NCBI RefSeq assembly: GCF_003544835.1
Contig: NZ_CP032099.1
Location: 1,860,001-1,924,000, forward strand
Source: Aliarcobacter skirrowii CCUG 10374
Lineage (GTDB): Bacteria > Campylobacterota > Campylobacteria > Campylobacterales > Arcobacteraceae
Length of the DNA: 64,000 bases
Direction of reading: 5' to 3'
Shown: positions 1,878 to 26,475 of the stretch, in pieces
Layout of the letters: the number at the start of each line of letters is the position of its first letter
Numbering within the stretch: the first letter of the stretch is position 1
Translations under genes and position numbers: made by a program
Notes under the pieces: model-generated
What the model saw: only the letters and a program-made list of their open reading frames with translations
Told to the model about the DNA's origin: nothing
Database searches by the model: none

Positions 1878-1878
1878 T

Positions 1879-3965: not shown

Positions 3966-4268
3966 TTATATGATTTTTCTAATTTCTTTTGTATTAATTT
4001 CATACAACTTATTTATTCCATTATGCAATTGTTTTTTTGTCTCTAACAACTCTATAATACGCTCTACATACAAAGGAATACCATGATTACTCCAACCATA
4101 AATTGTAGGTTTTGAAATCCCAGAATATCTAGAGAATCTCGATATATTCATATCTATGCAGCTTATTTTCTCTTTGAATTGTTCTAAATTCAAAGTCGAT
4201 TTCTTTGACTTTGTTCTAGTCTTTCCATAAATATTATTTTCATTTTTTCTATTATTTTTTTCATTCAT
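3966..4268 (-). CDS. Small HTH DNA-binding protein, possible controller
   Basis: A 100-aa basic protein starting at the ATG at 4268, which has AAAGG seven bases upstream; an in-frame ATG at 4310 lacks such a site. Residues 42-62 (ISRFSRYSGISKPTIYGWSNHG) read as a helix-turn-helix of the Cro/MerR-like class, where an alpha-helical ISKPTIYGW would contact DNA. It is transcribed divergently from the methyltransferase gene at 4336 with about 67 bases between starts, the arrangement of restriction-modification controller genes. No specific family is recognised and the regulatory role is inferred from position. Confidence 0.5.
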   Translation of the reverse strand: MNEKNNRKNENNIYGKTRTKSKKSTLNLEQFKEKISCIDMNISRFSRYSGISKPTIYGWSNHGIPLYVERIIELLETKKQLHNGINKLYEINTKEIRKII

Positions 4269-4335
4269 ATTTAAACCTTTATTAAGTAAAAGTATATTAA
4301 AATAATACAACTTATAAAAACATTAAGGAATTTTT

Positions 4336-5361: not shown

Positions 5362-5372
5362 TCCTATATCTT

Positions 5373-5404
5373 GGATAAATTAATTTGTATAAAATAATTT
5401 ATCC
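5373..5404. terminator. Bidirectional hairpin between convergent genes
   Basis: Perfect 10-bp arms at 5373-5382 and 5395-5404 with a 12-nt loop lie between the methyltransferase stop (plus) and the ATPase stop (minus), overlapping the last codon of the latter. AT-rich arms make it weak, but its placement fits a shared terminator. Confidence 0.45.
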
Positions 5405-7224: not shown

Positions 7225-7893
7225 ATGGAAAATTCAGAAATAAAATTTTCTCAGCGTAAAATTAAAAAGAACTATCGTTCTATAACTGGACATTTTCCAA
7301 GTATTAAAAATAATACTTCAATAGGTTTTGAATCAAAACTTGAAAAAGCTCATTTTTTATCTCTAGAATTTGATAATGAAGTAATCTCATATCAAGAACA
7401 GCCTCAAATAGAGATATGTATCAATGGTAAAAATAAAATTTATAGTGCAGATTGTTATATCAAAAGAGCTAAAAACTCAAATAAAAAAGATAGTATTGTA
7501 GAAATTAAGTATACAAATGAAATAGAAAAAAGAAAAGATTACTTCGAAAAAAAATTTGAAGCTGCAAAAACTTCAGTAAATAAATTGAATCTTGATTTTG
7601 AAGTTTATACTGAAAAAATACATAGTGAAATATATTTAGATAATTTGGATTTTTTATATAGATACAAATTGCAATCTATTGAAAATAAATATGAAGATCA
7701 GATATTAAAGATACTTAATAAAAATAATAAAATATCTGCTTTTGACTTGGCAAACTTAATATCAAAAAACCCTATAGAATACGGACTTATTTCAAATTGT
7801 ATTTGGGATTTGGTATGCAAAGAAAAACTAAAAACTAATTTAGAGTTATCAAAAATTACTATGAATTCATTAGTGGAGCTATCTTATGAGTAA
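7225..7893 (+). CDS. tnsA: TnsA-like transposon endonuclease
   Basis: TnsA cuts the 5' ends of a Tn7-like element so that transposition is cut-and-paste. The 222-aa protein follows the family layout: FESKLEK with Glu36/Glu40, a YQEQP strand, YSADC with Asp76 and VEIKY with Glu93/Lys95, a restriction-enzyme-like catalytic core, then a C-terminal winged-helix region (about 150-222) that normally contacts TnsC. Its end overlaps tnsB by 8 bases. The 216 bases upstream are shared with the divergent ATPase gene and hold several degenerate matches to the transposon-end repeats, which could allow TnsB autoregulation. Confidence 0.88.
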   Translation: MENSEIKFSQRKIKKNYRSITGHFPSIKNNTSIGFESKLEKAHFLSLEFDNEVISYQEQPQIEICINGKNKIYSADCYIKRAKNSNKKDSIVEIKYTNEIEKRKDYFEKKFEAAKTSVNKLNLDFEVYTEKIHSEIYLDNLDFLYRYKLQSIENKYEDQILKILNKNNKISAFDLANLISKNPIEYGLISNCIWDLVCKEKLKTNLELSKITMNSLVELSYE

Positions 7894-9772: not shown

Positions 9773-9776
9773 ATTT

Positions 9777-10646
9777 ATGAATGAAAGAAACTTAATATCA
9801 GAAGCTATTGAATACTTAAGTAAAAGTGATGAAGAGAGAATCTTATACTGTAAAAAAGACCATTGGATTGGTTATGGTGCAGCAGTTAAATTAATAGAAA
9901 TTTTAGAAGATAAATTTTTAGATCCACCTCAAATGAGACATGAAGGATTACTAATATATGGAGATTCAAATAATGGTAAAACTGCCATTCTAAAAAGAAT
10001 GTATGAATTACATAAAACAAAACTTGATTATGTCACAAAAGATGGTGAAGCAATTTATGAGATACCAATAATATATTTTCAAGCACCAACAATTCCTGAT
10101 GAAAGTAGATTATATAGCTTAATACTTGATGAACTTTGCGTACCACAAAATAGAGTTGATAAAGTTGCAACAAAATCTCATCTTGCTAAACATCATTTAA
10201 ATAAACTAGGTACTAAAATGATTTTAATAGATGAGATACATAGTTCATTAAGAGGTAATTTAAACAAACAAAGAACTTTTATAGATGATTTAAAACAATT
10301 AAGCAATAGCTTATCACTAACAATTGTTTTAGCAGGAACAAGAGAAGCATATTCTGCACTATCAATAGGGAATGAAACAAGTAGTAGATTTCCAGCACTT
10401 GAATTACCTAGGTGGAATAATGATAAAAAATTTAGATCATTTGTAGCAACATATGAAAGATGCTTACCTCTTAAACAAGCTTCAAATATGGCAAATAATC
10501 CAGAATTAGTTAGCAAATTATTTTATCAATCAGAAGGCTTAATTGGTAAAACTGTAAATTTATTAAAAAAAGCATCTATAAAAGCGATCCAATCAAAAAG
10601 AGAATATATTTCAGTTGATGATATAGAATATTTACCAAAGTTGTAA
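9777..10646 (+). CDS. tniB: TnsC/TniB AAA ATPase regulator
   Basis: The 289-aa AAA+ protein has Walker A YGDSNNGKT (61-69) and Walker B MILIDEIH (148-155, Asp152/Glu153). In Tn7-like systems this ATPase polymerises on target DNA, links the target selector TniQ to TnsA/TnsB and enforces target immunity. It is about half the length of Tn7 TnsC and matches the short TniB form of Tn5053/Tn6022-type elements. It sits 4 bases after tnsB and its stop is one base before tniQ. Confidence 0.9.
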   Translation: MNERNLISEAIEYLSKSDEERILYCKKDHWIGYGAAVKLIEILEDKFLDPPQMRHEGLLIYGDSNNGKTAILKRMYELHKTKLDYVTKDGEAIYEIPIIYFQAPTIPDESRLYSLILDELCVPQNRVDKVATKSHLAKHHLNKLGTKMILIDEIHSSLRGNLNKQRTFIDDLKQLSNSLSLTIVLAGTREAYSALSIGNETSSRFPALELPRWNNDKKFRSFVATYERCLPLKQASNMANNPELVSKLFYQSEGLIGKTVNLLKKASIKAIQSKREYISVDDIEYLPKL

Positions 10647-10647
10647 A

Positions 10648-11823
10648 ATGGCAAAAAGAAAAAGAGATACTTCATGGATTCAGAACTATTTCTTTTTGAT
10701 AGTTCCTCGACCTTTTGAAGATGAACTTTTAAGTTCTTGGCTAACAAGAGTTGCAATTGAACATAAACGAAAATTATCTATTTTTTTAAGTTTATATGTA
10801 AAAAAGGAAGGTAATTCTATTTCAAGAAATGATTTAGATTTTTTATATGATGAAAAGTTATTTGAAGCTTTAGTAAATAAATCAAATCTTACAAAAAAAG
10901 ATATTTTTAAAATGTCTTTAAGAAGTGAAGAAGGTTACCTATATTCTTGTAGTGATAATAATTTATATCCACCAAATCAAATTAGAAAACTTGTAGATAA
11001 AAGAAATCACTATGGACTAATGTATTGTCCCAAATGTTTAGCCGAAGATAAAATCCCATATTTTAGGAAAAAATGGAGATATCAATTTTATAATATTTGC
11101 ACAAAACATGAACTATTTTTAACAGATAGGTGCTGGGTATGCTATGAAAAAGTAAATTTTTCTAAAATAACTCACAACAAGAATTTAGCAATTTGTAGTA
11201 AATGTGAAAAAGATTTAAGAACATCTGTTTGCAAAAATATTGAAGATTATCATAGATATGGATTAGAAGCTACAAAATGGTTTGAAAAAGGATTAGAAGA
11301 TGGTTATTTTATAATTAACAATGAAATGATTCATTCTATTTATATTTTTAATAGTTTTAAAAGATTTATTTATTTAATCGATACAGCAGAAAAACTAATT
11401 TTAGATGATTTCCCATTAATTAATCAATATAAAGAAGTTTGTAAAAAAATCAACCTGTATAACTCCAAAAAAGCAAGTCTTATATATAAAGATTTTTACT
11501 TAACTTCAATGATTTATTTTTTATTTCAAAATTATCCATATAACCTTAAAAAATTTGCCAAAGATAATAATGTAACTTATAGAGATTTTTTTCATAGCTT
11601 AAAAGATACTTCTTTTTGGTACAAAAATTTAATCTTTGATTTGGTACCAATGGAAAACAAAAAAGGTAGAGAAATAGTTGAAAGCGAAGTATCAGGTGCA
11701 ATTAAATATTTAGAAAGTATAAATGAACGAGTTAATATTATAAATGTTGCTGAAGTTGTTGGATGTCATCCTAGTATTCATAAAAGATTTAATAAGATTT
11801 ATAAATTTTTAGTCAATATATAA
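10648..11823 (+). CDS. tniQ: TniQ/TnsD-like target selection protein
   Basis: The 391-aa protein opens with a TniQ domain (VPRPFEDELLSSWLTRVA, residues 19-36) and has zinc-binding clusters Cys127/Cys130, Cys151/His154, Cys162/Cys165 and Cys183/Cys186. The C-terminal half is helical and DNA-binding in relatives. TniQ/TnsD proteins recognise a fixed chromosomal site. Since the element sits in the 3' end of mnmG, this protein probably reads mnmG coding sequence; that is inference. It is shorter than Tn7 TnsD (about 500 aa). No CRISPR effector or array is present, so this is not a CRISPR-associated transposon. Confidence 0.9.
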   Translation: MAKRKRDTSWIQNYFFLIVPRPFEDELLSSWLTRVAIEHKRKLSIFLSLYVKKEGNSISRNDLDFLYDEKLFEALVNKSNLTKKDIFKMSLRSEEGYLYSCSDNNLYPPNQIRKLVDKRNHYGLMYCPKCLAEDKIPYFRKKWRYQFYNICTKHELFLTDRCWVCYEKVNFSKITHNKNLAICSKCEKDLRTSVCKNIEDYHRYGLEATKWFEKGLEDGYFIINNEMIHSIYIFNSFKRFIYLIDTAEKLILDDFPLINQYKEVCKKINLYNSKKASLIYKDFYLTSMIYFLFQNYPYNLKKFAKDNNVTYRDFFHSLKDTSFWYKNLIFDLVPMENKKGREIVESEVSGAIKYLESINERVNIINVAEVVGCHPSIHKRFNKIYKFLVNI

Positions 11824-11825
11824 AT

Positions 11826-11854
11826 TTAACTTTTAATACCATTTAAGATATAAT
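11826..11854 (+). promoter_or_regulatory. Candidate sigma-70 promoter for the ietA-ietS pair
   Basis: TTAACT (4/6 to TTGACA) is 17 bases from a perfect TATAAT at 11849-11854, and the ietA ATG follows at 11879. It gives the defence pair its own promoter, independent of the transposition operon ending at 11823. Confidence 0.5.
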
Positions 11855-11878
11855 GGTAAAAATTCAAGAAGAGGAATT

Positions 11879-12865
11879 ATGGCAAAAGCATCTCAGCTAA
11901 AAGCACTAATCAAATCACACTATGATAATGATTATACTAGATTTGATACTTTATCATTGCAAGTAGCTGCACATGAAGCTACACTTGGTAATAATTCCTT
12001 AGCACTAGAAGTAAAGAAACTTGTAGATAATTCAAAAAAGAATCGTACAGTAGAAGCGATTAATTCTAATAATGTAAAACTATACAATAATACTATTGAT
12101 GAGCTATTCATTCATTCAAGACCAATATTAGATATGTCTGAAATAATCCTTTCAACTTCTAATCATGATAAAATAGTAAAAATTTTAAATGAATATAACA
12201 ATCAAGAAAAATTAAAAAAACATGGATTAAAACATAGAAGAAAGATTCTATTATCTGGACATCCAGGTACTGGTAAAACAATGTCAGCTTCTATTATAGC
12301 TTCAGAACTTCATTTACCTTTATATGTAATACAAATAGATAAAATCATTACAAAATTTATGGGTGAAACTGGTGCAAAACTTAGACAAATATTCAAAATG
12401 ATAGAGATGCAAAAAGGTGTTTATTTTTTTGATGAATTTGATTCTATTGGTACCGATAGAAGTAAAGATAATGAAGTTGGAGAAATGAGAAGAGTATTAA
12501 ACTCATTTTTACAATTTTTAGAGAATGATAACTCTGATAGTTTAATAATCACAGCTACAAATAATATAGCTTTATTAGATAGAGCATTGTTTAGAAGATT
12601 TGATGATATTTTATATTATGATATACCAACAAAAGAAGAAATACTTAAACTTTTAAAACTAAGACTACAATCATTTACAGTTAATTTTGATTTAGAGAGT
12701 ATTTTACCTAAGGCTTCAGGATTAAGTCATGCAGATATTGTAAAAACATGTAATGATGCTATTAAAGAAGCAATTATCAATGATAAAAAGTATGTCTCTA
12801 AGACATCCTTAATTCACAACTTTGAAATTATAAAAGAATCGTATAAAAAAATTAGTGAGGCGTAA
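11879..12865 (+). CDS. ietA: AAA ATPase of an IetAS-like defence pair
   Basis: The 328-aa protein has a short helical N-terminal domain, then a classical AAA module: Walker A SGHPGTGKT (126-134), Walker B VYFFDEFD with Asp185/Glu186, sensor 1 (TATNN) and an arginine finger region (DRALFRRFDD). The module resembles that of FtsH and Vps4, but no protease or membrane segment is present. The subtilase gene starts 3 bases after its stop. An AAA ATPase coupled to a subtilisin-like protease is the IetAS arrangement, first seen in plasmid incompatibility and later reported as antiphage. The symbol is assigned by this pairing. Confidence 0.75.
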   Translation: MAKASQLKALIKSHYDNDYTRFDTLSLQVAAHEATLGNNSLALEVKKLVDNSKKNRTVEAINSNNVKLYNNTIDELFIHSRPILDMSEIILSTSNHDKIVKILNEYNNQEKLKKHGLKHRRKILLSGHPGTGKTMSASIIASELHLPLYVIQIDKIITKFMGETGAKLRQIFKMIEMQKGVYFFDEFDSIGTDRSKDNEVGEMRRVLNSFLQFLENDNSDSLIITATNNIALLDRALFRRFDDILYYDIPTKEEILKLLKLRLQSFTVNFDLESILPKASGLSHADIVKTCNDAIKEAIINDKKYVSKTSLIHNFEIIKESYKKISEA

Positions 12866-12868
12866 TAA

Positions 12869-15352
12869 ATGCCTGATTTAAGACCTTTATTTATTAGTGG
12901 ACAATGTAAAACTGATATAAGATTCACATCTCCTCAAAGAGGTGGAGGTAATTCAACTTTACCTTATAGAAATGCACCTGAACATGGAAATAGACTGTAT
13001 GGAAAATTACAATCTCTTTTAACTTCTCAAACTGAACTTATATCTCAGAATGAGTCTTTAAATAAAGGAATTTATTTAGAGGTTTTAGGGATAGAGGGGA
13101 TTGACTTAAATATAGAACCTCTTGAAAGTTCATCAAAAGATATTAGATTATCAAATTTTAAAAATACAAATCCACAAAAAGCTACACTATTTTTACCATT
13201 AGAGAAAAAAGATTTTTTAGAGAAAAAAATAAAAGAATATACAGAGAAATTAACTAAAAAAGGAAACCCAAGACATAATGATTTAATTGCGGTTATAGAA
13301 GATTTTAAAATTGCTACAATTAATTCATTTTGGAATGGTAAAGAAGATAAAATTCCTAGTGAAACTAAAGTATGGTGTGAAGTATGGTTAATTAATAATA
13401 AAAATACTCATGATGAAGATGTTATTTCAGAGTTTATAAATGTAACCCACACCAACAATATAGAAATTCGAACAGAATCAAATATAAAATTTCCAGAGAG
13501 AATAATAACTTTAGCAAAATTAAATGCTGAAGATATTTTGAATTTAATTGATTCATATCAATATTTAGCTGAAATAAGACCTTATGCAATACCAAATATA
13601 GCCTATACAAGTATGGAATACATCGACCAAAAAGAATGGGTAAATGAATTAAAAGATAGAGTGATTGTCGATTCAGATACTAAAGTTTCGATATGTATTT
13701 TAGACACTGGGGTAAATAATGTACACCCATTATTAAAAGATATCTTAAAAGATGAAGATAAACACACTTTTTTATCATCATGGGATGTAAATGATCACAA
13801 TGGTCATGGTACTGAAATGAGTGGGATAGCGGCTTATGGAGATTTGAATGAATATTTAACTACTACAGCAAATGTTGAATTAAATCATACTTTAGCATCA
13901 TATAAAATATTACCACCTACTGGAGACAATGAAGTAAACTTATGGGGATATATTACCTCTCAAGCCGTTTCGGAAAGAACTATTAAAGAATCTGGGAAAA
14001 TACATATATTCTCAATGTCTGTCACAGCAAATGATACAAATGGAGATATACCTGATGGTACTCCAAGTTCATGGTCATCTGCAATAGATAATGAACTATT
14101 TAATGGTGATACGAAAAAACTTTTTTGTATATCAGCAGGAAATGCAGACTATATCGATGATACATTCAATTATATTAGCAGTAATATAATGGCTCCAATA
14201 GAAAATCCAGCTCAATCTTGGAATGCTTTAACGATTGGAGCTTATACACAAAAAGATACCATTACAGATGAAGAAGATGAATACATTGATTATGATGTAG
14301 TAATGGCACAAAAAGATGAAATATCTCCATTTACAACAACTTCTTCTTTATGGGATAAACAATGGTGTATAAAACCTGATGTAGTATTTGAAGGTGGAAA
14401 TCTTTTGTTAAATACTACAAGAAACGATAAAACAGAACATGAAGATTTATCACTCTTAACAACCCATTCAAATATTTATAGAGATTTAATTACTTGGACA
14501 TTTGCAACAAGTGCAGCAAATGCAGTAGGAGCGAATTTTGTAGCAAGATTATATTCTACTTTTCCAGAAGCAACACCTCAAACAATTAGAGGGTTAGTTG
14601 TTCATTCGGCTAATTGGACAGATAAAATGATTGAACAATTTACAGTATCAGGGCAATCACCAAAAGATCTTTATGGAATATTATTAAGAACTTGTGGTTA
14701 TGGAGTACCTGATTTTGATAAGGCAGTGAATTGCTACAAAAATAGTTTAACTTTAATAGCAGAAGATACTATTCAACCATTTATTAAAATTGGTAGTGAT
14801 ATAAAAACAAATGTGATGAATCTTTATACTCTTCCATGGCCTAAAGAAGCATTAGAAGATTTAGGTTCTTTAGAAGTAGAAATGAGAGTTACTTTATCAT
14901 ACTTCATCGAACCAGCTCCAACAGAAATGGCTGTAAGTAGTTTTAATAGATATAACTATCCATCTCATGGGCTTAGATTTGAAGTAAATCACCCAAATGA
15001 AAGTATGCAAGAATTCAAAACTAGATGTAATAAACAAGATAGAACGGAAGACTATATATCAAGTGGTTTAAGTACATCAGATTATTGGAAAATTGGTAAA
15101 AATACAAGAGATAGAGGAAGTATAATATCTGATGTATGGAAAGGAAAAGCTGTAGAATTAGCTTCTTGTAATCACATCGCAGTATATCCAACAAATGGAT
15201 GGTGGAAAACAAGAAAACATTTAGAAGCTTATGATAATGTTACTAGATATACTTTAATTGTAAGTATTTATTCTCCATCTAATGATATTGATATATACAC
15301 ACCTGTACTTACACAAGTTACTATTCCAATACAAACTCAAATCCCAATATAA
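12869..15352 (+). CDS. ietS: Subtilisin-like (S8) serine protease, IetS-like
   Basis: The 827-aa protein has a ~260-residue N-terminal region of unknown fold, then an S8 peptidase domain with the triad Asp279 (CILDTGVNNVHP), His313 (NDHNGHGTEMSG) and Ser548 (TFATSAANA), plus an SAGN oxyanion asparagine near 425. The serine lies in an ATSAAN rather than the usual GTS context. No signal peptide is visible, so it is probably cytoplasmic, as expected for a regulated toxic protease. A ~200-residue C-terminal beta-rich region follows. The preceding AAA ATPase gene probably controls or licenses it. The intergenic 15353-15530 is AT-rich with no gene seen. Confidence 0.78.
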   Translation: MPDLRPLFISGQCKTDIRFTSPQRGGGNSTLPYRNAPEHGNRLYGKLQSLLTSQTELISQNESLNKGIYLEVLGIEGIDLNIEPLESSSKDIRLSNFKNTNPQKATLFLPLEKKDFLEKKIKEYTEKLTKKGNPRHNDLIAVIEDFKIATINSFWNGKEDKIPSETKVWCEVWLINNKNTHDEDVISEFINVTHTNNIEIRTESNIKFPERIITLAKLNAEDILNLIDSYQYLAEIRPYAIPNIAYTSMEYIDQKEWVNELKDRVIVDSDTKVSICILDTGVNNVHPLLKDILKDEDKHTFLSSWDVNDHNGHGTEMSGIAAYGDLNEYLTTTANVELNHTLASYKILPPTGDNEVNLWGYITSQAVSERTIKESGKIHIFSMSVTANDTNGDIPDGTPSSWSSAIDNELFNGDTKKLFCISAGNADYIDDTFNYISSNIMAPIENPAQSWNALTIGAYTQKDTITDEEDEYIDYDVVMAQKDEISPFTTTSSLWDKQWCIKPDVVFEGGNLLLNTTRNDKTEHEDLSLLTTHSNIYRDLITWTFATSAANAVGANFVARLYSTFPEATPQTIRGLVVHSANWTDKMIEQFTVSGQSPKDLYGILLRTCGYGVPDFDKAVNCYKNSLTLIAEDTIQPFIKIGSDIKTNVMNLYTLPWPKEALEDLGSLEVEMRVTLSYFIEPAPTEMAVSSFNRYNYPSHGLRFEVNHPNESMQEFKTRCNKQDRTEDYISSGLSTSDYWKIGKNTRDRGSIISDVWKGKAVELASCNHIAVYPTNGWWKTRKHLEAYDNVTRYTLIVSIYSPSNDIDIYTPVLTQVTIPIQTQIPI

Positions 15353-15530
15353 TTATTTTTATATTTTAAAATCATTTCCGAATTATACTTATTGCCTAAA
15401 TAAGATTATTTTATCATCTATTTATTATTAATTAGTCCTATTTAAATATTTTTTATAGTTAATCTTTCAATTAATCTTATTCTTAAAATTTTACTCCAAA
15501 CTAATGATAATAAAGAATTATGGATAATAT

Positions 15531-18500
15531 ATGTTAAAACCAAATTTAATTAAAATTCAAAATTTTATTAATATAGCATTAAAGAAAAAACCAATATCTT
15601 CTGAAACTTTAAATATATTTATTGATCAACTTAAATTATTGAATAACGTAAATCCTGAAGCAACTGAAGAAAATCAAAAAACATTTATAAGAGATTTTCT
15701 AATAAATACTTTTAATTATAAAATAAATACTTCTGGAGATATAGATTGGGCAATTTTTAATGAATTTAATAAAGTAGAAGTGATTATTGAAGTAAAAAGA
15801 ATCATAAATGAATCAGAAATGGTAAATAAAGAAAATTTTCTTAGAAAAGCATTTTTTGAAACAATATTATATTTCATGAAAGAAAGAAATCAAGGAAACG
15901 TAGATTTAAAACACATAATTATAACAAATGTTCATAATTGGTATATTATTGATGCATCTGAATATGAAAGAATTTTCTGGAATAATAAATTATTTAGAAA
16001 AAGATTTTTAGACTGGGAAAATAAAAAAACTTTAGATGATAGAACGGAGTTTTTCTATTTTTCAATTGCTAAACCTTTTTGTGAATCTTTATTAAATACC
16101 AGAAGGGAATCCTTATTTGATGATATCTATAATGAATTAATAGAAGTAAGTTCTTTTACATTAAAAGAACTTAATTATAATAATTCAGAGAACAATTTAA
16201 GTAATGTATATAAACTACTAAGCCCTGATACATTATTAAAAGATTTTACTCCCAATGATAGTAATTCTTTGAATAAAAACTTTTACGATGAATTACTTTA
16301 TATATTAGGATTAGAAGAAGCAAAAGTTAATGGTAAAAAAAGAATTATAAGAGTAAGAGAAAATAGACAAGATGGATCTTTCTTTGAAAATATTTATTCT
16401 AAACTTGATAGTTATAGTGAACTATCTAAAAATGAAGACAAAAACTTTAATAGCATAATTTCATTAATTATAGTCTGGTTAAATAGAATTATATTTTTAA
16501 AGCTTTTTGAAAATCAACTTACTGGATTTTCTAAAAATGAAAATTATGCTTTTCTTAAAAAAGAGTTTATTAAAGATTTTGGTGAACTTGAAAAGCTTTT
16601 CTTTCATGTATTATCTAAAAAACCAAATCAAAGAAATGAGGAAGTAAAAAAGAAATATAGTTTTATACCTTATCTAAATAGTTCACTTTTTGAACAATCT
16701 GAAGAAGAGAGAAAATTAATGCTTATTTCTCAACTCGATTCTACTTCAAAAATTAAAATTTATAAAAATACTGTTTTAAAAGATTTTAATGGTAAAAAGA
16801 TGTCTGGGGAGAGTAATCCTCTTCATTATTTATATGACTTTTTGAATTCATATAGTTTTGGAAGTTTAAATAATAGTAATACCATTGAAGACCAGCACAA
16901 AGAACTAATTAGCTCATCAGTATTGGGATTGATTTTTGAAAAAATAAATGGCTATAAAGACGGTAGTTTTTATACTCCAAGTTATATTACTACATTTATG
17001 TCAAAAAATATTCTAGAAAAAATAGTTGTAGATAAATTTAATGAAATCAAAGGTTGGAATTGTAATAATTTAAACGATTTGTATAATAAAATTGAAAATA
17101 TATCTGAAGCAAATGATATTATTAATAGTTTAAGAATATGTGATCCTGCAGTTGGAAGTGGGCACTATTTAGTTTCAATGCTAAATGAAATAATTAAATT
17201 AAAATCAGATTTGGGTATTCTAGAAGATAAAAATGGAAAGAAAATTAGAGATTATAAAATCTTAATAGAGAATGATGATTTAGCAATAAAAACTATAGAT
17301 AATGAATATTTTACTTATAAAAGGCCTAAGACCGTAAGCGATAATCATATTGTTCAAGAAACAATATTTTTAGAAAAACAAAAAATTATAGAAAATTGTT
17401 TATTTGGAGTTGATATAAATAGAAACTCTGTTAATATTTGTAGATTAAGATTATGGATAGAACTATTAAAACACACTTATTATACCGAGGAAAGTGGCTT
17501 TGAATATTTACAAATCTTACCGAATATTGATATAAATATTAAAGATGGAAATTCATTATTAAGTAAATTTCCATTAGTAGATAACGAAAATATACCAAAA
17601 CAAGTAAAAGAAAAAATAGATAACTATAAAGGGCTTGTAAAAGAGTATAAAAGTAGCAAGGATAAAATAGAGAAACATAAAATTAAAGAACATATACTTA
17701 ATTTAAGAAAAGAGTTATTCTTAGATTTCAACAATAATTCAAAACATGTTTTAAATTTAAAAAAATTACTTAATGGCTACACAAATAAGAAAGAAGTAAA
17801 AAAAGGTTATGTGCAACAATTTGGATACGAAGGTTTATCAAAAGAAATAGTATCAAATTATGTTAATGCAACATCTAATAGTTTATTTGATATTGCTAGT
17901 ACTATGACTAAATCTCAATTAGCTGAAGCACAAAAGATAAAAAATGATATGCTTAAAATTATTAATAAAATATACTTAGATATAAAAGAAATAGAAAGTA
18001 ATAAAATATATGAAAATTCTTTTGAATGGAGATTTGACTTCCCTGAGATCTTAGATAATGATGGAAAATTTTTAGGTTTTGATGCAATTATTGGAAATCC
18101 TCCATACATAAGAGAACCTGATAATAAAGAAGCTTTTATTGGATTACACGATGCATCTTGCTATAAAGGTAAAATAGATTTATGGTTTTTGTTTGCTTGT
18201 AAAGGAATAGATTTATTAAAAAACAATGGTAGATTGTCTTTTATTGCTACAAATAATTGGATTTCTAACTATGGAGCATCAAAATTTAGAAATAAAATTC
18301 TAAAGACTACTAAAATTGAAGAGTATATTGATTTTGGTGAGTATTTTGTTTTTGATAGTGCAGATGTTCTTACAATGATATTTACTCTTAAAAAAACAGA
18401 AAATATAGATGATTATTATTGTGAATATTCGAAAATATTAGATAAGACAATAAAAGAGGAAAATGTAAAAGAATTTTTAAACAAAGTACCACATAAAAAA

Positions 18501-19430
18501 ATACTATCATATAAATCATTGATGATTAATGAAAATTTAATTGATAAGAATATAGTTTTCTTAAATAATGATATTAAATCTATTTTAAATAAAATTGAAG
18601 AAAAAAAGAATTTTAAGTTAGATGAAAAAAATGAAATAACGAATGGCGTGCAAGTGCAACAAGAATTTGTTAATAAAAAATCTTTGGAGAAATTAGGGGA
18701 AAATTATAGATTAAATGAAGGTATTTTTATTTTATCAACAAAAGAATTAAAAAACTTAAACTTAAATTTGAATGAATTAGAAATAATAAAACCATTATAT
18801 ACTTCAACTGAAATTTATAGATACTGTACTCAAAAAGACAATAAATACTGGGTTATATATACTGATAGCAGTTTTAAGAATGTAGAAAAAATGCGGGATT
18901 ATCCAAATTTAAAATATCATTTAGATAGATTTAAAAATATTATCACAACAGATAATAAGCCTTATGGTATTCATAGAGCAAGAAATGAATATTTTTTTAA
19001 AGGAGATAAAATTTTATCTTTAAGAAAATGTGTAAATAGACCTTTGTTTAGCTATGTTGATTTTGATAGTTATGTAAATCAAGCATATTATGTAATAAAA
19101 TCAAATCGAATTAATTTAAAATATTTAACTGCACTTTTAAACTCTAAAATAATTACATTTTGGTTAAAGTATAAAGGGAAAATGCAAGGTGACAATTTTC
19201 AAATTGATAAAGAACCATTATTAAATTTACCAATTTTAAATATTGATAATAATCATATTTCAATGGATAATATCAATAATCTAATAGACAAAATTATTCT
19301 TATCTCAAGGCTTAATTCTACTGATAGTACAGAAGAAATAGTTAAGTTAGAAAATAATTTAAATAAAATATTTTATGAGTTATATAATCTCAATGATGAT
19401 GATATAGAAAAAATCGATGGAATTTATTAA
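15531..19430 (+). CDS. Eco57I-type single-chain restriction-methyltransferase
   Basis: The 1299-aa protein joins an N-terminal PD-(D/E)xK-like nuclease (Asp70/Asp72, then IIEVKR with Glu87 and Lys89) to a helical linker, a gamma-class N6-adenine methyltransferase (motif I DPAVGSGHY from 538; NPPYI from 856) and a C-terminal target-recognition region (about 1000-1290). One chain therefore both cuts and methylates, as in type IIG/IIL enzymes. PglX of BREX is a related methyltransferase, but the other BREX genes are absent. The frame is open throughout. Specificity cannot be read from sequence alone. Confidence 0.85.
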   Translation: MLKPNLIKIQNFINIALKKKPISSETLNIFIDQLKLLNNVNPEATEENQKTFIRDFLINTFNYKINTSGDIDWAIFNEFNKVEVIIEVKRIINESEMVNKENFLRKAFFETILYFMKERNQGNVDLKHIIITNVHNWYIIDASEYERIFWNNKLFRKRFLDWENKKTLDDRTEFFYFSIAKPFCESLLNTRRESLFDDIYNELIEVSSFTLKELNYNNSENNLSNVYKLLSPDTLLKDFTPNDSNSLNKNFYDELLYILGLEEAKVNGKKRIIRVRENRQDGSFFENIYSKLDSYSELSKNEDKNFNSIISLIIVWLNRIIFLKLFENQLTGFSKNENYAFLKKEFIKDFGELEKLFFHVLSKKPNQRNEEVKKKYSFIPYLNSSLFEQSEEERKLMLISQLDSTSKIKIYKNTVLKDFNGKKMSGESNPLHYLYDFLNSYSFGSLNNSNTIEDQHKELISSSVLGLIFEKINGYKDGSFYTPSYITTFMSKNILEKIVVDKFNEIKGWNCNNLNDLYNKIENISEANDIINSLRICDPAVGSGHYLVSMLNEIIKLKSDLGILEDKNGKKIRDYKILIENDDLAIKTIDNEYFTYKRPKTVSDNHIVQETIFLEKQKIIENCLFGVDINRNSVNICRLRLWIELLKHTYYTEESGFEYLQILPNIDINIKDGNSLLSKFPLVDNENIPKQVKEKIDNYKGLVKEYKSSKDKIEKHKIKEHILNLRKELFLDFNNNSKHVLNLKKLLNGYTNKKEVKKGYVQQFGYEGLSKEIVSNYVNATSNSLFDIASTMTKSQLAEAQKIKNDMLKIINKIYLDIKEIESNKIYENSFEWRFDFPEILDNDGKFLGFDAIIGNPPYIREPDNKEAFIGLHDASCYKGKIDLWFLFACKGIDLLKNNGRLSFIATNNWISNYGASKFRNKILKTTKIEEYIDFGEYFVFDSADVLTMIFTLKKTENIDDYYCEYSKILDKTIKEENVKEFLNKVPHKKILSYKSLMINENLIDKNIVFLNNDIKSILNKIEEKKNFKLDEKNEITNGVQVQQEFVNKKSLEKLGENYRLNEGIFILSTKELKNLNLNLNELEIIKPLYTSTEIYRYCTQKDNKYWVIYTDSSFKNVEKMRDYPNLKYHLDRFKNIITTDNKPYGIHRARNEYFFKGDKILSLRKCVNRPLFSYVDFDSYVNQAYYVIKSNRINLKYLTALLNSKIITFWLKYKGKMQGDNFQIDKEPLLNLPILNIDNNHISMDNINNLIDKIILISRLNSTDSTEEIVKLENNLNKIFYELYNLNDDDIEKIDGIY

Positions 19431-19446
19431 AGAAGTATAATTCTTT

Positions 19447-19463
19447 ATTATCGTTAATTGATT
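19447..19463 (+). repeat. Direct repeat, copy 1, upstream of the recombinase
   Basis: ATTATCGTTAATTGATT occurs here and again at 20533-20549, and the match extends to 20/21 with the next bases. The pair brackets the tyrosine recombinase gene, 1086 bases apart. It could be a recombinase crossover site, a trace of integration of that gene, or an internal transposase site. Confidence 0.6.
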
Positions 19464-19562
19464 CTATCAAAATAATTCTAAAATAATATATAAAACTCTC
19501 ATACTTCATAGCATTAAAAGTAACTAATAACTAAACTCCCACTTTTAATTTAAAGGAGTTAC

Positions 19563-20489
19563 ATGGTATTACCAAAAGCAATTGAAAAATTTAGATTTCA
19601 TTGTGTTTATGAAAAGAATCTAAGTTTAAAAACTATGCATGCTTACGATGCAGATTTAAATCAATTTTTAGAGAAATTTAAAAATTATAAAATAAATGAA
19701 ATATCAAAATTTGATCTAAAAGATTATGTTGAAAGTTTATTTAACCATCCTTACAAAATAAAAACTATAAAACGAAAAATAGCGGTATTAAAAACTTTTT
19801 TTAATTACCTAGAGTTTGATGAAATTTTAGAAATAAATCCATTTAGAAAATTAAGACTGTCTCTAAAAGAACCAAAATTACTACCTAAAACACTAGATAT
19901 TAAAGAAATTAAAACTATTTTAAAATATCTATATGATTTAAAAAATATTTATGATAAATCTACTTTTAGATACAACCTTCTAGTAAGAGATATAGTTACC
20001 ATTGAAATATTATTTTCAACTGGAATAAGAGTATCTGAACTATCAAATTTAAAGAAAAATGAAATAAATATAAAGCAAGGCATTATCAAAATATTTGGCA
20101 AAGGCTCAAAAGAAAGAATAATGCAAATCTGCGACAAAGAAGTTTTACTATTATTAAAAGAGTACTGCATATTATTTAAAATAAAAGATAATGAAACTAA
20201 ACATTTTTTACTAAATAGATTAAATAACAATTTTTCAGAACAATCTATTAGAGCTATGATACATAAATATGAAGAAAAATTAGGTCTAAAAAGTGTTACT
20301 CCTCATATGTTTAGGCACTCTTTTGCAACACTACTCCTAGAAGAAGGAGTGGATGTAAGATATATCCAAAATATGTTGGGACATTCTTCAATATCAACTA
20401 CCCAAATCTATACAAAAGTAAATACAAAGCATCAAAGAAAATTACTCAATACAAAACATCCAAGAAGAACTCTAAATTTTCTTAATTAA
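19563..20489 (+). CDS. Xer-like tyrosine recombinase
   Basis: The 308-aa recombinase has an N-terminal SAM-like core-binding domain (about 1-95) and a catalytic domain with Arg156 (STGIRVSEL), Lys180 region (GKGSKER), His248 and Arg251 ([10 protein letters not shown]), His274 (MLGHSS) and nucleophile Tyr283 (TTQIYTKV). All residues needed for DNA cleavage and rejoining are present. It has a good AAAGGAG site before the ATG. Size and motifs resemble XerC/XerD more than phage integrases. It sits alone between two copies of a 17-bp direct repeat, inside the transposon, so it is probably an accessory recombinase for dimer resolution or a nested cassette. Confidence 0.85.
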
Positions 20490-20494
20490 TAATA

Positions 20495-20517
20495 AACTAG
20501 ACTTAAAAAGTCTAGTT
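20495..20517 (+). terminator. Hairpin after the recombinase gene
   Basis: Perfect 10-bp arms (20495-20504 and 20508-20517) with an AAA loop begin 5 bases after the recombinase stop. No U-tract follows, so termination strength is uncertain. Confidence 0.5.
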
Positions 20518-20532
20518 ACTCCAAGTAAATTA

Positions 20533-20549
20533 ATTATCGTTAATTGATT
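20533..20549 (+). repeat. Direct repeat, copy 2, downstream of the recombinase
   Basis: This is the second copy of the 17-bp sequence at 19447-19463, in the same orientation. It contains a CG step, which is rare in this AT-rich intergenic DNA, so chance repetition is unlikely. Confidence 0.6.
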
Positions 20550-20665
20550 TTATACAAAGGTTACTAAATTTATTATTATAAAAATAATTATTTCATCTAA
20601 TTATTTACCCTAAAAAAGTGGCAAAGTAAACTAAACTATATTAGTTAAAATCCTATTGTATTATT

Positions 20666-21304
20666 TTAATTTCCTTTTAGTAGAGGTTTCCCACATTCTT
20701 CTAATTTTTTATTTAATTCTACCATTTTTTCTTCAGCAATTTTAGGCTGTACATAACAAAATTGAAAAAGTGATTGAAGAATGTCTAAACACCATTCTGC
20801 TTCCCCCGTTTCTACATTTACTATTTCACCTGTATTTTGACTTTTTATAGGATGAGCTGAAAAATTACCAATTTGTCTTATTGCATCTAGTTGTTTAGAA
20901 ATATATTCTGGAACTTTCGTCATAACTTCGTCTATCTCTTCAGATAAATTCTTTTTCTTAATTTTAAAATGTTCATGAATAATAGTTTGTAAACATCTTC
21001 TACTAAGAGCTGCACTAGCTTTTGGGCTATCATTTAAAATTAATCCAGCTTCATTGAAGTCTTCTGCAATATGTGATGGCACTTCATTTGGTGCATTGTC
21101 ACATGAACTAATTTTTGGATAAACTAGAAATTCATTTTTTAAGTTTATATCACCAGAAAAAGGAGTATTTAGTAAAAATATTATCTTTTTTTTACAAGAA
21201 GGACAGTTTTCATACCTAACATACCAATAATACTTATTATCCACACCTAGTTCTTCATTTTGGAAATTTATATGTATATAATTTTTACAATGAGGACATT
21301 TCAT
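20666..21304 (-). CDS. DUF4145 protein with N-terminal zinc ribbon
   Basis: The 212-aa protein has an N-terminal zinc ribbon (Cys3/Cys6 and Cys34/Cys37) and a helical DUF4145 domain (about 85-180). DUF4145 is HEPN-like, and here IRQIGNFSAHP holds Arg143, Asn147 and His151, close to the R-x-x-x-N-x-x-x-H pattern. DUF4145 proteins or domains are often found in defence loci and beside restriction systems, but have no established activity that I know. An AAAGGAAAC site precedes the start. It is downstream of the TnsE-like gene on the same strand, 58 bases away, so the two may be co-transcribed. Confidence 0.75.
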   Translation of the reverse strand: MKCPHCKNYIHINFQNEELGVDNKYYWYVRYENCPSCKKKIIFLLNTPFSGDINLKNEFLVYPKISSCDNAPNEVPSHIAEDFNEAGLILNDSPKASAALSRRCLQTIIHEHFKIKKKNLSEEIDEVMTKVPEYISKQLDAIRQIGNFSAHPIKSQNTGEIVNVETGEAEWCLDILQSLFQFCYVQPKIAEEKMVELNKKLEECGKPLLKGN

Positions 21305-21362
21305 ATCAAGTTTCCTTTGCTATTATATTAAATCAGATAATACCAAATATTATAAGTAAATA

Positions 21363-23060
21363 CTAGATTTTTTTCAATAAATTAAAATACCACATTGCAA
21401 GTTGCTTATCTTCTAAATCTTCATTTCTTTCATGATATTTTCTATCAAATGTAGGATTAGAATTCGAATATCTTTGTTTTATTTCAAGTGGATTCATATT
21501 ATATTTACAATATAAATTGATAAATTTATTAAAATCACTATCTTGAATTTGTCTATTGGATGTTAGTACCCAAGTAGAGCTTGCAGAAGATGGTTTATTT
21601 TCTAACTCTAATAATCCAAAAAAATAGTTGTCATACTGGAATGTAACAGTTATATATTTTCTAGCTCTTTTATTGATTTTACATTTAGGATTAATTTGCT
21701 TTTTACCATCTTCAACATCTAAAGTAAATTGTTGTAACTCTTTCTCTTCACTTATATATAAATCTTTTATATCTTTTCTTTGTACTAAATATCTAATATA
21801 TTGTCTAAATACTACAAAATTATCTATTTCATTTAATGGATTATATGAAGTATCTTTAACAAATTCACTTGAAATTACAACCTTTCTAATATTTGAATTC
21901 CCTTTTGAAGATGATTGTGTTAAGCTTAGATCTATTATTTCATCACTTTCTTGGTCTTTATATATTTTTAATAGATTTTCAATAACTTCTAATGATGATT
22001 CTTTTTCATCAACTTGAATATCTTTTAGGCTACCACAACTCTTTTTTCTATTCTTTTGATTAGATGTTTGTGTATATTTTTTACTAGCATGAGCTATTTG
22101 AAGTATTTCTGTTGTTTCATCTGGTACTTCTCTTTCTATAACTGGAAGATTATCTATATCATCAATATTTAGAGTTATTTTATTTTTTTGAATATATTTT
22201 GTGAGTTTTTCGAATCCTATACTAGAATAATCATTTATAATTTCATGAATAAAGTAATAAATTTCATTTGTAACTTTATTTTTAATAATTGAACTTCTTG
22301 TATCGATTTTAAATTGTTCTTTTGTTGGAAAATTAAATTTAAGATGCATTTTATAAATATCTTCATCTAAATTTTTTTCTTGCATATACTTCAAGTAATT
22401 ATGAATATAGCTAGATACATTATCAAACTCTTTAATTGCACTTTTTTGACAAGCAAATCTATGTATAATAGCTGCATCTTCATCTGTTTTATATTTAGGC
22501 AAAACTATCTTTGCATCTTTAGGATTATCATCACAAAGTATATATAATTCTTTCAATGTTGAATCAAGAACAGCTTCTTTTAAAGCAGAAGATCTAAAAT
22601 AGTAATATATACCAATTGCAAAATGTGGGATAATTAAATTAACACCATCTATTTCTACTAGGTAACAATTTATATTTTCAGCAGTCTTTAGATATTTTTT
22701 ATTCCAACCAAGCAATATTCCAATTGCATCTTCATTTAGTAAATCTTTTAATTTTTTTAAATTATTTTCATTAATAGTTTTTGAATCAATAATAAAACTT
22801 TTTTCTTCTATACTATTTTTTCTATCAACTTTTTTACCATTTTCATAGTACTCTAAAAATTGATAATGCGTGAAAAATAATTCAGGTGATACTGGGTATT
22901 TAAATACTTCTTTTTTAGTTATATTTTTAACAACTACTTCATAGTTACTATTACCATATTTATCTTCATCAAGTACAATTTTAAGGGGAAATATGAACTG
23001 AAAAGTATCATCAGGATTATTCTTCATAAACTCTGGAATGATACTTTTTCTAGTTGACAT
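21363..23060 (-). CDS. Probable TnsE-like transposition protein
   Basis: The 565-aa protein is not a confident family match. Its layout recalls Tn7 TnsE (about 540 aa): a central NLIIPHFAIGIYYYFRSSALKEAVL block (141-165) corresponds to the TnsE P-x-x-x-x-A-x-x-x-F-x-x-S-x-L region. A C-terminal part (about 405-565) starts with a NPLNEID segment and contains ARKYITVTFQYDNYFFGLLELE followed by STWVL. A charged Ser/Lys-rich linker (about 315-370) separates the halves. In Tn7, TnsE directs insertion into replicating DNA, favouring conjugal plasmids. Position supports this: it is the outermost gene of the element, facing in from the end in mnmG. Unlike Tn7, it is not next to tniQ. Confidence 0.55.
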   Translation of the reverse strand: MSTRKSIIPEFMKNNPDDTFQFIFPLKIVLDEDKYGNSNYEVVVKNITKKEVFKYPVSPELFFTHYQFLEYYENGKKVDRKNSIEEKSFIIDSKTINENNLKKLKDLLNEDAIGILLGWNKKYLKTAENINCYLVEIDGVNLIIPHFAIGIYYYFRSSALKEAVLDSTLKELYILCDDNPKDAKIVLPKYKTDEDAAIIHRFACQKSAIKEFDNVSSYIHNYLKYMQEKNLDEDIYKMHLKFNFPTKEQFKIDTRSSIIKNKVTNEIYYFIHEIINDYSSIGFEKLTKYIQKNKITLNIDDIDNLPVIEREVPDETTEILQIAHASKKYTQTSNQKNRKKSCGSLKDIQVDEKESSLEVIENLLKIYKDQESDEIIDLSLTQSSSKGNSNIRKVVISSEFVKDTSYNPLNEIDNFVVFRQYIRYLVQRKDIKDLYISEEKELQQFTLDVEDGKKQINPKCKINKRARKYITVTFQYDNYFFGLLELENKPSSASSTWVLTSNRQIQDSDFNKFINLYCKYNMNPLEIKQRYSNSNPTFDRKYHERNEDLEDKQLAMWYFNLLKKI

Positions 23061-23074
23061 GATTAAATAATTCT

Positions 23075-23136
23075 CTCATTATCATTTTTTATTTTACATA
23101 TTATCAATTTATATTGACTCATTATCATTTTTTATT
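23075..23136 (-). repeat. Three tandem TnsB-type repeats at the mnmG end
   Basis: Three 19-bp units lie at 23075-23093, 23097-23115 and 23118-23136, with starts 22 and 21 bases apart. The outer two are identical (CTCATTATCATTTTTTATT on the plus strand) and the middle one agrees at 15/19. Read inward from the terminus at 23146, the first unit begins after ten bases, as in the Tn7 right end. They fill the gap between the TnsE-like start and the mnmG stop; the outermost unit encodes the final Asn-Lys-Lys-stop of MnmG. Confidence 0.75.
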
Positions 23137-24999
23137 GCTTGTGACAAACCTATTCAAATTTAAATGTATAATATCAAGTGCAGCTGGTGTAACTCCAGAT
23201 ATTAAACTTGCATTATATAAAGTTGGTGGTCTATGCTTTTCAAGCTTCTCTATAACTTCATTTGAAAGCCCTGGAAGTCCTTTGTAAGAGAAGTTTTCAG
23301 GTATATTTAGTTTTAGCATTTTCTTCATTTTTTCTATCTGTTTTTGTTGCTTTTGAATATATCTATAATATTTCGCTTCTACAATTATTTGCTCTTTTAA
23401 ATAATCATCAAGCTCTTTTAAACTAGGAACCAAAATATCTAATTTTTCAATATCTATTGTATTTCTTCCTATTAAATCAACCAGTAAAACCTTATCATTT
23501 ATTTTCTCTTCTCCAATAGATTCTAAAAGTTCCAAAGTCTCTTTTTTAGAAGTTATCCAAGTATTTGCCATATAATTAATTGCATCTTCAAGAACTTTTC
23601 TTTTGTTTTCTACTTTTGCAAATGTTTCATCATCTATAAGTCCTAATTCATGACCATATTGGCTAAGTCTTATATCAGCATTCTCTTCTCTTAAAAGAAG
23701 TCTATACTCAGCACGGCTTGTAAACATTCTATATGGTTCGTGCGTTCCTTTTGTAACTAAATCATCAATTAAAACACCAATATATGCTTCATCTCGTCTT
23801 AAAATAAAAGGCTCTTTTCCATCTATTGCTAAAGATGCATTTATACTTGCCATCAATCCTTGAGCTGCTGCTTCTTCATATCCTGTTGTTGCATTTATCT
23901 GTCCAGCATGATAAAGATTTTTTATCTTTTTTGTTTCAAGTGTGTGTTTTAACTCTGTTGGATCAACATAATCATACTCAATAGCATATCCATATCTTAT
24001 AACTCTTGCATTCTCTAAACCTTTTACGCTAGCAATCATTTGCTTTTGAATCTCAATAGGAAGTGAACTTGACATACCATTTATATAATACTCCGTACAC
24101 TTAGCAGTTTGTGGCTCTAAAAATAGTTGATGTCTCTCTCTTTCGCTAAATCTTTTAACTTTATCTTCAATACTAGGACAATATCTTGGACCTGAACCTT
24201 GAATTTGTCCTGTATAAATTGGGGCTCTATGAAAATTTGCAGCAATTAACTCATGAGTGCTTAAATTTGTATAAGTTACATAACAAGGGTATTGTGTAGG
24301 ATTAAAATCTTTTTTTGATGTTCTAAATGAAAATGGTGTAGGTTTTACATCGCCACCGTGAGTCTCCATTACTGAAAAATCAATACTATTTGCATCAAGT
24401 CTTGAAGGTGTTCCAGTTTTAAGTCTTCCAACATTTAATCCAAGCTCTTTTAGTTGAATTGAAAGAGTAGTAGATGGCAACTCCCAAGCACGACCAGCTT
24501 CATAAGTATTTTCACCAATGTGAATTAAACCTCTCATAAAAGTTCCAGTTGTAAGAATAGTTTTTAAAGATCTAAACTCTTCTCCAAGTTTTGTTTTTAC
24601 TCCTAAAACTTCACTATTTTCAACTATTAAAGAAGTTACTTCATCTTGATAGATGTCCAAGTTTGGTGTGTTGTGACAAACTTTTCGCATATACTCTTTA
24701 TACTCATCCATATCAATTTGAGCTCTTGTACCTTGAACAGCAGCTCCTTTTGAACCATTTAAAACTCTAAATTGAATTCCTGAGGCATCTGTACAAAGTC
24801 CCATCTCTCCACCAAGAGCATCAAGCTCTTTTACAAGATGTCCTTTTGCTAAACCTCCAATTGCAGGATTACAACTAGCCGCTCCAATTTGCTCAACTAG
24901 CATTGTTATTAATAGTGTTTTTTTACCAAGTCTTGCACCTGCTAATGCTGCTTCAATACCAGCATGACCAGCACCAACAACGATTATATCGTATTGCAT
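23125..24999 (-). CDS. mnmG: tRNA uridine 5-carboxymethylaminomethyl modification enzyme MnmG
   Basis: MnmG (GidA), with MnmE, installs the cmnm5 group on the wobble uridine of tRNAs using FAD, NADH and folate. The 624-aa protein begins with the FAD-binding motif [19 protein letters not shown] (7-25), has [14 protein letters not shown], the [13 protein letters not shown] and [16 protein letters not shown] signatures, and a C-terminal helical domain that binds MnmE. The last residues, Val-Thr-Ser-Asn-Lys-Lys, come from the transposon end; the bases left of the element restore an original tail Leu-Lys-Gln-Lys with a TAG stop. Function should be unaffected as only the extreme tail changes. It is the insertion target of the element. 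Confidence 0.97.
23147..23151. repeat. Right target-site duplication inside mnmG
   Basis: AACCT directly abuts the transposon terminus GTGACA. It encodes part of the Arg-Phe codons of MnmG and differs at one base from AACAT at 56-60. Confidence 0.65.
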
Positions 25000-25105
25000 T
25001 TAATTTTCCTTTTTAAAGAGTATTAGAATTTTTAAATAAGAGTTAAAATTAGCTTCTTATGAATTTTTGGCTATTATAACCAAATTTTATCTAAAGGTTT
25101 TTTAA

Positions 25106-25714
25106 GTGTTTACAGGTTTAATAAGAGAGATGGCAAAGGTTGAGAGCTTTTCAAATAATATTTTAACTCTAAAAGCAGAATATATACCTAAAATTGGAGA
25201 TTCTATTGCTGTAAATGGAGCTTGTTTAACTGTTATAAAAATAGGAAATAAAAATTTTAGTGTAGAGTTATCTCCTGAAAGTAGTTCTATTTTAGCACTA
25301 GAAAATTATAAAAATGAAGTTCATATAGAACCAGCAATGCAAATGGGCGATAGATTTGAAGGTCATATTGTTCAAGGACATATTGATTGTGTTGGAACAG
25401 TTGAAAAAATAGATAAAAATGGTAATTCAACAGATTTTTATATCAAAGTACCTAAAGAGTTTTTAAAATATATGATTCCAAAAGGTAGTGTTGCAATTGA
25501 TGGTGTATCACTAACTATAAATGAAGTTTTAAAAAGTAGTTTTAGACTTACAATTATTCCTCACACAATTCAAAATACACTTTTTAGAAATTATAAAGTA
25601 GGAAGTAAAGTTAATATTGAAACAGATATGTTTGCTAGATATATTTATAATATGTTTAATAAAAAAGATAATCTATCGTGGAGTGATGTTGATAGAATTA
25701 TGGCAGCTTACTAA
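25106..25714 (+). CDS. ribE: Riboflavin synthase alpha subunit
   Basis: Converts two molecules of 6,7-dimethyl-8-ribityllumazine into riboflavin and a pyrimidine. The 202-aa protein starts with the typical MFTGLI on a GTG codon 10 bases after AAAGG. It has the two repeated lumazine-binding domains, each with its GxSVAVNGxCLT-like block (GDSIAVNGACLTV near 34-46; GSVAIDGVSLTIN near 130-142) and the MQMGDRFEGHIVQGHIDCVG linker. No FMN riboswitch is apparent in the roughly 100-base gap from mnmG. Its 3' end overlaps mreC by 4 bases, convergently. Confidence 0.95.
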   Translation: MFTGLIREMAKVESFSNNILTLKAEYIPKIGDSIAVNGACLTVIKIGNKNFSVELSPESSSILALENYKNEVHIEPAMQMGDRFEGHIVQGHIDCVGTVEKIDKNGNSTDFYIKVPKEFLKYMIPKGSVAIDGVSLTINEVLKSSFRLTIIPHTIQNTLFRNYKVGSKVNIETDMFARYIYNMFNKKDNLSWSDVDRIMAAY

Positions 25715-26475
25715 TCTAAAATTTCCTCATAAGTGTAAAAAAATCTTTTTTCAAGAGGTTTTGCATAAGGCTCTATTGTAGCTACTTTCATATCAGGATA
25801 CTCTTTTATCTCAACAACTTTTCCAACTCTAAGTCCTTCATAAAAGATATTATCAAGTCCAGATGTTATTACCTCATCACCAATATTTATATTTGCCCAA
25901 ATTGGTATAAATTTAACTTGTAAAAGTTTATCATCACTCTGTTTTGATGTTAAAATTCCAGAACCTTTGCTATTCCCAATAAAAACTGCATATGTACAAT
26001 CTTCATTTCCATTTAAAAGTCCAATATTTTTAGCTCCCCTTTTTAAAGCTATCCCTGCAGCATAATTTTCAGAGATTAAACCAACTATTTTTTCATCTAA
26101 CTCTTTATCAATTAAAACAGTTGTAAAGTCATCAAAATTTATATAAGACAAAACTCTTACAATATCAATTTTTACATTTATATTTGGTATTTCAACATTT
26201 ATTAAAAACTCTTTTAATGAATCTATTTTTGAAATTGTTGATTCATATAGATATTTATACTCTTTTAATTTTAAATTTTCAGATTGAAGCTCTTTTATTA
26301 AAGCTTCTTGATTAAAATGGTTTTTAATATTTTGAGAAAAATTTATATAACCATTTATATAAGAGTTTTTTAACCCTGCAAAAAATCCAAACTGTTTTGA
26401 AATATACTCATCTACTTCAAACAAATAGATTAATCCTGCAAAGATAAATAAAGATAGAAATAAAAATCTCTTCAT
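25711..26475 (-). CDS. mreC: Rod shape-determining protein MreC
   Basis: MreC is a periplasmic scaffold linking the MreB cytoskeleton to the wall elongation machinery. The 254-aa protein has a short N-terminal membrane anchor (about 3-19), a coiled coil (about 55-85) and the beta-barrel MreC domain with its conserved GIGDxVxTSG-type block (NINIGDEVITSGLDNIFYEGLRVGKV). It follows mreB by 7 bases on the same strand. No mreD is seen next to it. Confidence 0.92.
   Translation of the reverse strand: MKRFLFLSLFIFAGLIYLFEVDEYISKQFGFFAGLKNSYINGYINFSQNIKNHFNQEALIKELQSENLKLKEYKYLYESTISKIDSLKEFLINVEIPNINVKIDIVRVLSYINFDDFTTVLIDKELDEKIVGLISENYAAGIALKRGAKNIGLLNGNEDCTYAVFIGNSKGSGILTSKQSDDKLLQVKFIPIWANINIGDEVITSGLDNIFYEGLRVGKVVEIKEYPDMKVATIEPYAKPLEKRFFYTYEEILD

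Follow-up and report, generated by a model that had tools for sequence, protein, structure and literature searches.

Does the reading frame at positions 21363-23060 encode TnsE, and does the transposon that carries it have two routes to new targets, one to mnmG and one to replicating or conjugal DNA? Both had been proposed in a preliminary description of the window (the whole 64,000-nucleotide stretch analysed here), which belongs to a 1.97-Mb, single-contig genome for which Aliarcobacter and Arcobacter are the closest named relatives. The description placed the frame correctly: it begins with ATG, runs on the minus strand and encodes 565 amino acids. In our assessment, this protein is very probably TnsE and serves as second target selector for a cut-and-paste transposon of the Tn7 type, whose home is mnmG, a gene for tRNA modification.

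To define the transposon, we compared the tails of mnmG with and without an element. In relatives without an element the gene product ends in ...LNLNMFLKQK-stop or similar, whereas the transposon supplies the last residues of element-bearing copies (VTSNKK, CHKH, CQKQ etc., depending on the frame). Because these tails differ, we placed the start of the transposon within mnmG, at TGTCACAAGC. The other end was located at position 61 (TGTGAGATTC) through the same repeat as the TnsE-side end; it does not lie directly upstream of tnsA, where we had sought it, and sits 7 kb further out. The two ends, the target duplication and the stranded mnmG tail therefore delimit a complete Tn7-like transposon at 61-23146 (23,086 bp), both ends of which start 5'-TGT. 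The boundary features are as follows.

61-23146, no strand assigned: transposon, with ends 5'-TGTGAGATTC (tnsA side) and 5'-TGTCACAAGC (TnsE side), recognised by tip repeats, duplication and displaced mnmG tail.
56-60, no strand assigned: distal copy of the target-site duplication, AACAT, the reverse complement of ATGTT; it matches ATGTT in the empty-site mnmG of relatives.
23147-23151, no strand assigned: mnmG copy of the target-site duplication, AACCT (AGGTT in the mnmG sense), one substitution from AACAT.
40-60, minus strand: displaced original mnmG 3' tail, ATGTTTTTAAAACAAAAGTAG, encoding MFLKQK and a stop; the same peptide tail is found in uninterrupted mnmG, e.g. at locus L056.
61-182, plus strand: tnsA-side end, carrying repeats near 70-89 and 163-182; the same end occurs in L020 with a perfect duplication.
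23075-23146, minus strand: TnsE-side end, with 20-bp repeats at 23075-23094, 23097-23116 and 23118-23137 (about 21-bp spacing) and the tip.
23125-24999, minus strand: mnmG, host gene and attachment site, in which the transposon end has taken the place of the last codons.

Repeats resembling TnsB sites are present at both tips. The outermost repeat of the TnsE end overlaps the mnmG stop codon, and the new C-terminus and stop codon of mnmG come from the outermost sequence of this end. The two window copies of the duplication agree at four of five bases, with the distal copy matching the empty site; the duplication is ATGTT, one window copy being now mutated. Exact 5-bp duplications were observed in relatives (L020 ATATT, L021 TATTT, L025 ATGTT, L026 TGAGA, L029 ATGGC and L034 ATGGA); some of these also retain a displaced mnmG tail or have the end of another element stacked right behind. 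The orientation of insertion is fixed: the last codons of mnmG are hit and the TnsE end lies nearest the gene. The precise ends, the duplicated target sites and the stranded mnmG tail thus bear out the mnmG route of the preliminary description.

Tandem stacking at mnmG with leftover TnsE ends was seen at L020 3600-3720, L027 18101-18190, L029 2390-2440 and L078 1-164, and these stacked elements gave no indication that immunity to re-insertion lasts.

Within these boundaries the genes are arranged as follows.

21363-23060, minus strand: TnsE, 565 aa, identified by AF2/Foldseek and hhalign and conserved in relatives.
7225-7893, plus strand: TnsA endonuclease (Pfam TnsA N-terminal domain, 8e-12).
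7886-9772, plus strand: TnsB transposase (Pfam rve and Mu-transpos_C; phmmer to PseTnsAB, 1e-49).
9777-10646, plus strand: TnsC AAA+ regulator of the TniB family (Pfam TniB, 3e-50).
10648-11823, plus strand: TniQ, 391 aa, which probably recognises the 3' end of mnmG (Pfam TniQ, 9e-23); among mnmG inserters it is better conserved than TnsE.
301-7008, no strand assigned: cargo, namely cytosine methylases, two ThsB-like TIR proteins, an NgoPII-type restriction enzyme and a HATPase/REase protein.
11879-15352, plus strand: cargo, an IetA-IetS anti-phage pair (PADLOC 4e-69 and 1e-39).
15531-19430, plus strand: cargo, a type IIG restriction-methylase (PADLOC 8e-251).
19563-20489, plus strand: Xer-type tyrosine recombinase (Pfam, NCBIfam; R, HxxR and Y residues present).
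20666-21304, minus strand: cargo, a DUF4145/PD-T7-4-like protein (Pfam 2e-16, PADLOC 1e-23).

The tnsE start codon lies 86 bp from the transposon tip and 64 bp past the mnmG stop, on the same strand as mnmG. At the tnsA-side end, by contrast, 7 kb of restriction and TIR genes come first, and tnsA begins 7.2 kb in from the tip. The preliminary description had put tnsE at the far end, inverted relative to tnsABC; the terminal position and the opposite strand hold, while tnsABC does not occupy the other terminus.

The recombinase at 19563-20489 may be a cointegrate resolvase. Genes of this type with the catalytic residues recur in L022, L028, L031, L118, L119 and L120 (50-92% identity) and are absent from some related elements.

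What identifies the 565-aa protein? The frame is not a chance one, since intact homologues of about 560 aa are found in many Campylobacterota genomes and comparison with the nearest homologue gives a protein-coding pattern (23%, 15% and 31% of codons differ at positions 1, 2 and 3). An AlphaFold (AF2) model of the protein had a mean pLDDT of 76, with very low confidence at residues 293-339 and 365-410. When this model was compared with the PDB by Foldseek, the top seven matches were all TnsE C-terminal domains (5d17, 5d16 and 9d5l) at a probability of 1.00 and a TM-score, normalised by target, of 0.58-0.66; the superposition had a high rmsd (5-8 Å) and covered the C-terminal domain alone. The eighth match had a 13-fold weaker E-value and a probability of 0.13.

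Similar results were obtained with sequence profiles. We built a family alignment for the window protein from thirteen homologues in related genomes and a reference alignment of nine TnsE sequences, comprising Tn7 tnsE from plasmid R721 (NC_002525) and eight further TnsE from named plasmids. Aligned by hhalign, the two profiles matched with a probability of 94.9 and an E-value of 4e-8 over 388 columns, and at the C-terminus the positions conserved in the window family and in plasmid TnsE alike (LLE-x-(D/E), ST, H and W) were brought into register. The negative control, the window family against TniQ, gave a probability of 0.5. Residues ~143-155 (IIPHFAIGIYYYF), which align with the clamp segment of Tn7 TnsE, are conserved in the family but show no evident canonical sliding-clamp motif. 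The structural and profile matches indicate that the protein is a divergent TnsE, with steering toward plasmids as its predicted role. The preliminary description had called it TnsE-like, proposing comparison with the Tn7 TnsE C-terminal domain as the check and naming a clear match to another family as grounds for rejection; it is upheld by both Foldseek and hhalign, and no other family came near in the structural search.

The window protein itself had no curated family match above threshold in Pfam, NCBIfam or PADLOC. Family members at L026 (6e-4), L128 (0.003) and L032 (0.01) did match Pfam TnsE_C, all below the curated cut-off. As the fold itself matches, we read the missing TnsE_C match as a limit on the sensitivity of a single sequence model; a score above that cut-off does not define the family. 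Sequence searches of the PDB and of plasmids with the window protein returned nothing relevant; a search of the genome contigs gave no matches with the single window sequence and nine loci with the family alignment.

In a survey of the order, TnsE homologues were found in 34 of 399 genomes. About 19 distinct intact copies of tnsE share the strand of mnmG and start 32-110 bp beyond its stop codon; tnsABC-tniQ, where present in the region, is inverted relative to tnsE, with the exception of L126 (part of the region read). The cargo differs between elements while the presence and place of tnsE are constant.

Two loci, L022 (8836-17400) and L023 (2430-12800), have an intact tnsE at mnmG with no tnsABC-tniQ found in the region examined; these elements are possibly mobilised in trans. 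Remnants with little beyond the TnsE end persist at mnmG in L034, L035 and L047.

How would such an element move? We propose that TniQ would bind the 3' coding sequence of mnmG and recruit TnsC and TnsAB to it. TnsE would recognise replication-associated DNA (in the case of Tn7 TnsE, on the lagging strand in conjugating plasmids), and by recruiting the same TnsABC it would offer an escape route to mobile DNA. From these sequences we infer a second route, via TnsE, to replicating or conjugal DNA. It could also be speculated that transcription of mnmG extends into tnsE when the element occupies its home site: co-transcription is possible because the genes are 64 bp apart on the same strand and no terminator-like site was seen between them.

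Insertions away from home were found in two genomes. In a Sulfurimonas metagenome bin, one copy of the clade is at mnmG (L081/L122) and another is on a 28-kb plasmid-like contig (L083/L087), the one such carrier found in the clade. This contig, which is not circular, has replication-initiation-like, primase-like, YafQ and integrase genes, and a 315-aa protein flanking the element has its sole plasmid matches on 2.4-2.8-kb plasmids. The element occupies 8286-25803 with CTATG on both sides, a perfect duplication, and in the TnsE tree this copy is nested among the mnmG copies with full support. Its TniQ (L087 11961-13073) lacks the last C-terminal helix-turn-helix-like segment of the mnmG-homing TniQ, which may be either a cause or a result of the departure from mnmG.

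The chromosome of G365 holds two 100% identical copies of a sister element (L128/L138 and L129/L139), one after argJ and one disrupting flhF. The argJ copy has the duplication TTTAT, stacked behind another end, and the flhF copy GTATG. Both the plasmid-like contig copy and the flhF copy are consistent with what a TnsE route would be expected to produce. For an element beside an RND-pump gene (L125), a matching target duplication was sought and not found.

Sister elements have other homes. The argJ 3' end (...VKINADYRT-stop) is the home site of one branch (L127 3409-3493, L129 17169-17253 and L137). The transformation gene dprA is split by TnsE-bearing Tn7-like elements at L130/L142 and L132/L144, with N-terminal junctions also at L131 and L033; the TnsE end adjoins the N-terminal part of the gene and, in G231 and G233, the far end adjoins the C-terminal part. 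This splitting of dprA parallels the inactivation of comM by Tn6022. A Tn7-like element on Nitrosophilus labii plasmid pHRV44 has a possible 519-aa TnsE at its far end, inverted (L150 32226-33785), for which the profile match is weak and composition-biased; we therefore draw no conclusion from it.

One alternative is that this TnsE is a relic, inherited although plasmid targeting is no longer in use. The end branch of the window protein in the TnsE tree is long (0.42 compared to 0.06 for its nearest relative), its specific substitutions are concentrated after residue 250 (residues 250-565, window 21363-22310), and broken tnsE copies stand at mnmG in L027 and L124. The substitutions in the C-terminal half could reflect faster evolution or recombination, and a relative-rate test is hard to read as mnmG itself has the same excess. 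Against a relic, the frame is full-length and intact with coding-type codon changes, the invariant residues of the family alignment are retained, and tnsE stays intact in L022 and L023 where tnsABC-tniQ was not found. We therefore regard a relic as unlikely.

Another possibility is that the TnsE-like protein itself reads mnmG, as a site selector sharing the TnsE fold alone, with TniQ as a bridge in the manner of TnsF and TniQ of Tn6022. Off-home copies aside, tnsE always adjoins mnmG in this clade, and the short TniQ (391 aa) is near the length of the TnsF-requiring Tn6022 TniQ (369 aa; PMC10293859). However, the proximity is explained by the position of tnsE at the end of an oriented element, and a close TnsE is present in the L083 element, which is not at mnmG. 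Among mnmG inserters, TniQ of L030 and of the window are 52% identical while their TnsE are down to 25%, and elements with argJ or dprA as their target also have TnsE homologues. Given this contrast and these other homes, the most likely explanation is that TniQ, and not TnsE, reads mnmG, TnsE being the second selector; the reverse assignment is improbable. A structural model of TniQ was too poor for use (pLDDT 57).

That the protein belongs to another family, such as cargo with a defence function, and resembles TnsE fortuitously is scarcely credible: the absence of a curated match and the many defence genes of the element would allow it, but Foldseek found TnsE structures alone, the profile match is strong (4e-8), and the gene keeps its presence and place across differing cargo.

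A wider proposal may be made tentatively, which we consider less likely than not. A Campylobacterota lineage may have evolved the two-route life of TnsE elements from homes of its own, mnmG, argJ and dprA; in its mnmG branch the transposon end would also supply the tail of the host coding sequence, the orientation of insertion would put tnsE in the mnmG transcription unit, and the plasmid-seeking factor would be made from a host promoter solely at home.

Within the open-access literature (most subscription papers and preprints lay outside the search), we found no report of Tn7-like elements at mnmG/gidA or in Campylobacterota, of mnmG tail replacement, or of the window TnsE branch. Weakly conserved tnsE genes are probably undercounted (Benler et al. 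2021, PMC8649781), and according to a 2024 review almost all elements that target glmS or comM have TnsE, with no mechanism known beyond prototypic Tn7 (PMC11406308). The present family offers a distant TnsE with compact natural tests, the same family being found with exact ends both on a plasmid-like contig and at its mnmG home. The attachment sites gain mnmG, together with argJ and dprA from sister elements, and the family provides a transposon end that doubles as replacement coding sequence for its target gene. The mnmG-homing elements also carry stacked anti-phage systems.

The remote, inverted tnsE has a precedent. Tn6022-type elements likewise have a highly divergent tnsE close to the far end and on the opposite strand (Faure et al. 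2023, PMC10293859), so the gene order that the preliminary description called unusual is confirmed as remote and inverted without being unique. Tn6022/AbaR-type elements and the window element also share tnsABC-tniQ with a short TniQ (PMC10293859). In contrast to Tn6022, the window element is in mnmG and not comM, has cargo (IetA) and no TnsF (orf3) after tniQ, and belongs to the phylum Campylobacterota; as it lacks TnsF and is not in comM, it is not a Tn6022 member. Its insertion swaps a few terminal codons, whereas that of Tn6022 disrupts the gene. No Tn6022 TnsE was found for comparison when Acinetobacter plasmids were searched via TnsB.

Compared to Tn7 TnsE (the R721 copy, NC_002525, with 5d16, 5d17 and also 9d5l), the window protein has the same C-terminal fold, can be aligned over most of its length and is likewise partnered with TnsABC and a TniQ-family protein, but the two are only ~14% identical and the canonical clamp motif is not seen in the window protein. 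The tnsABCDE cluster of Tn7 ends with tnsE; in the window element the gene is at the opposite end and inverted. Insertions of Tn7 lie past the stop codon of glmS, and its tnsA-side end is the one closest to that gene. Like Tn7 at glmS, the window element is inserted in fixed orientation at the 3' end of a conserved housekeeping gene, with a 5-bp duplication and TGT/ACA ends. Unlike Tn7, it is inserted within the coding sequence, its end encodes the new tail of the gene, and it is the TnsE end that faces mnmG.
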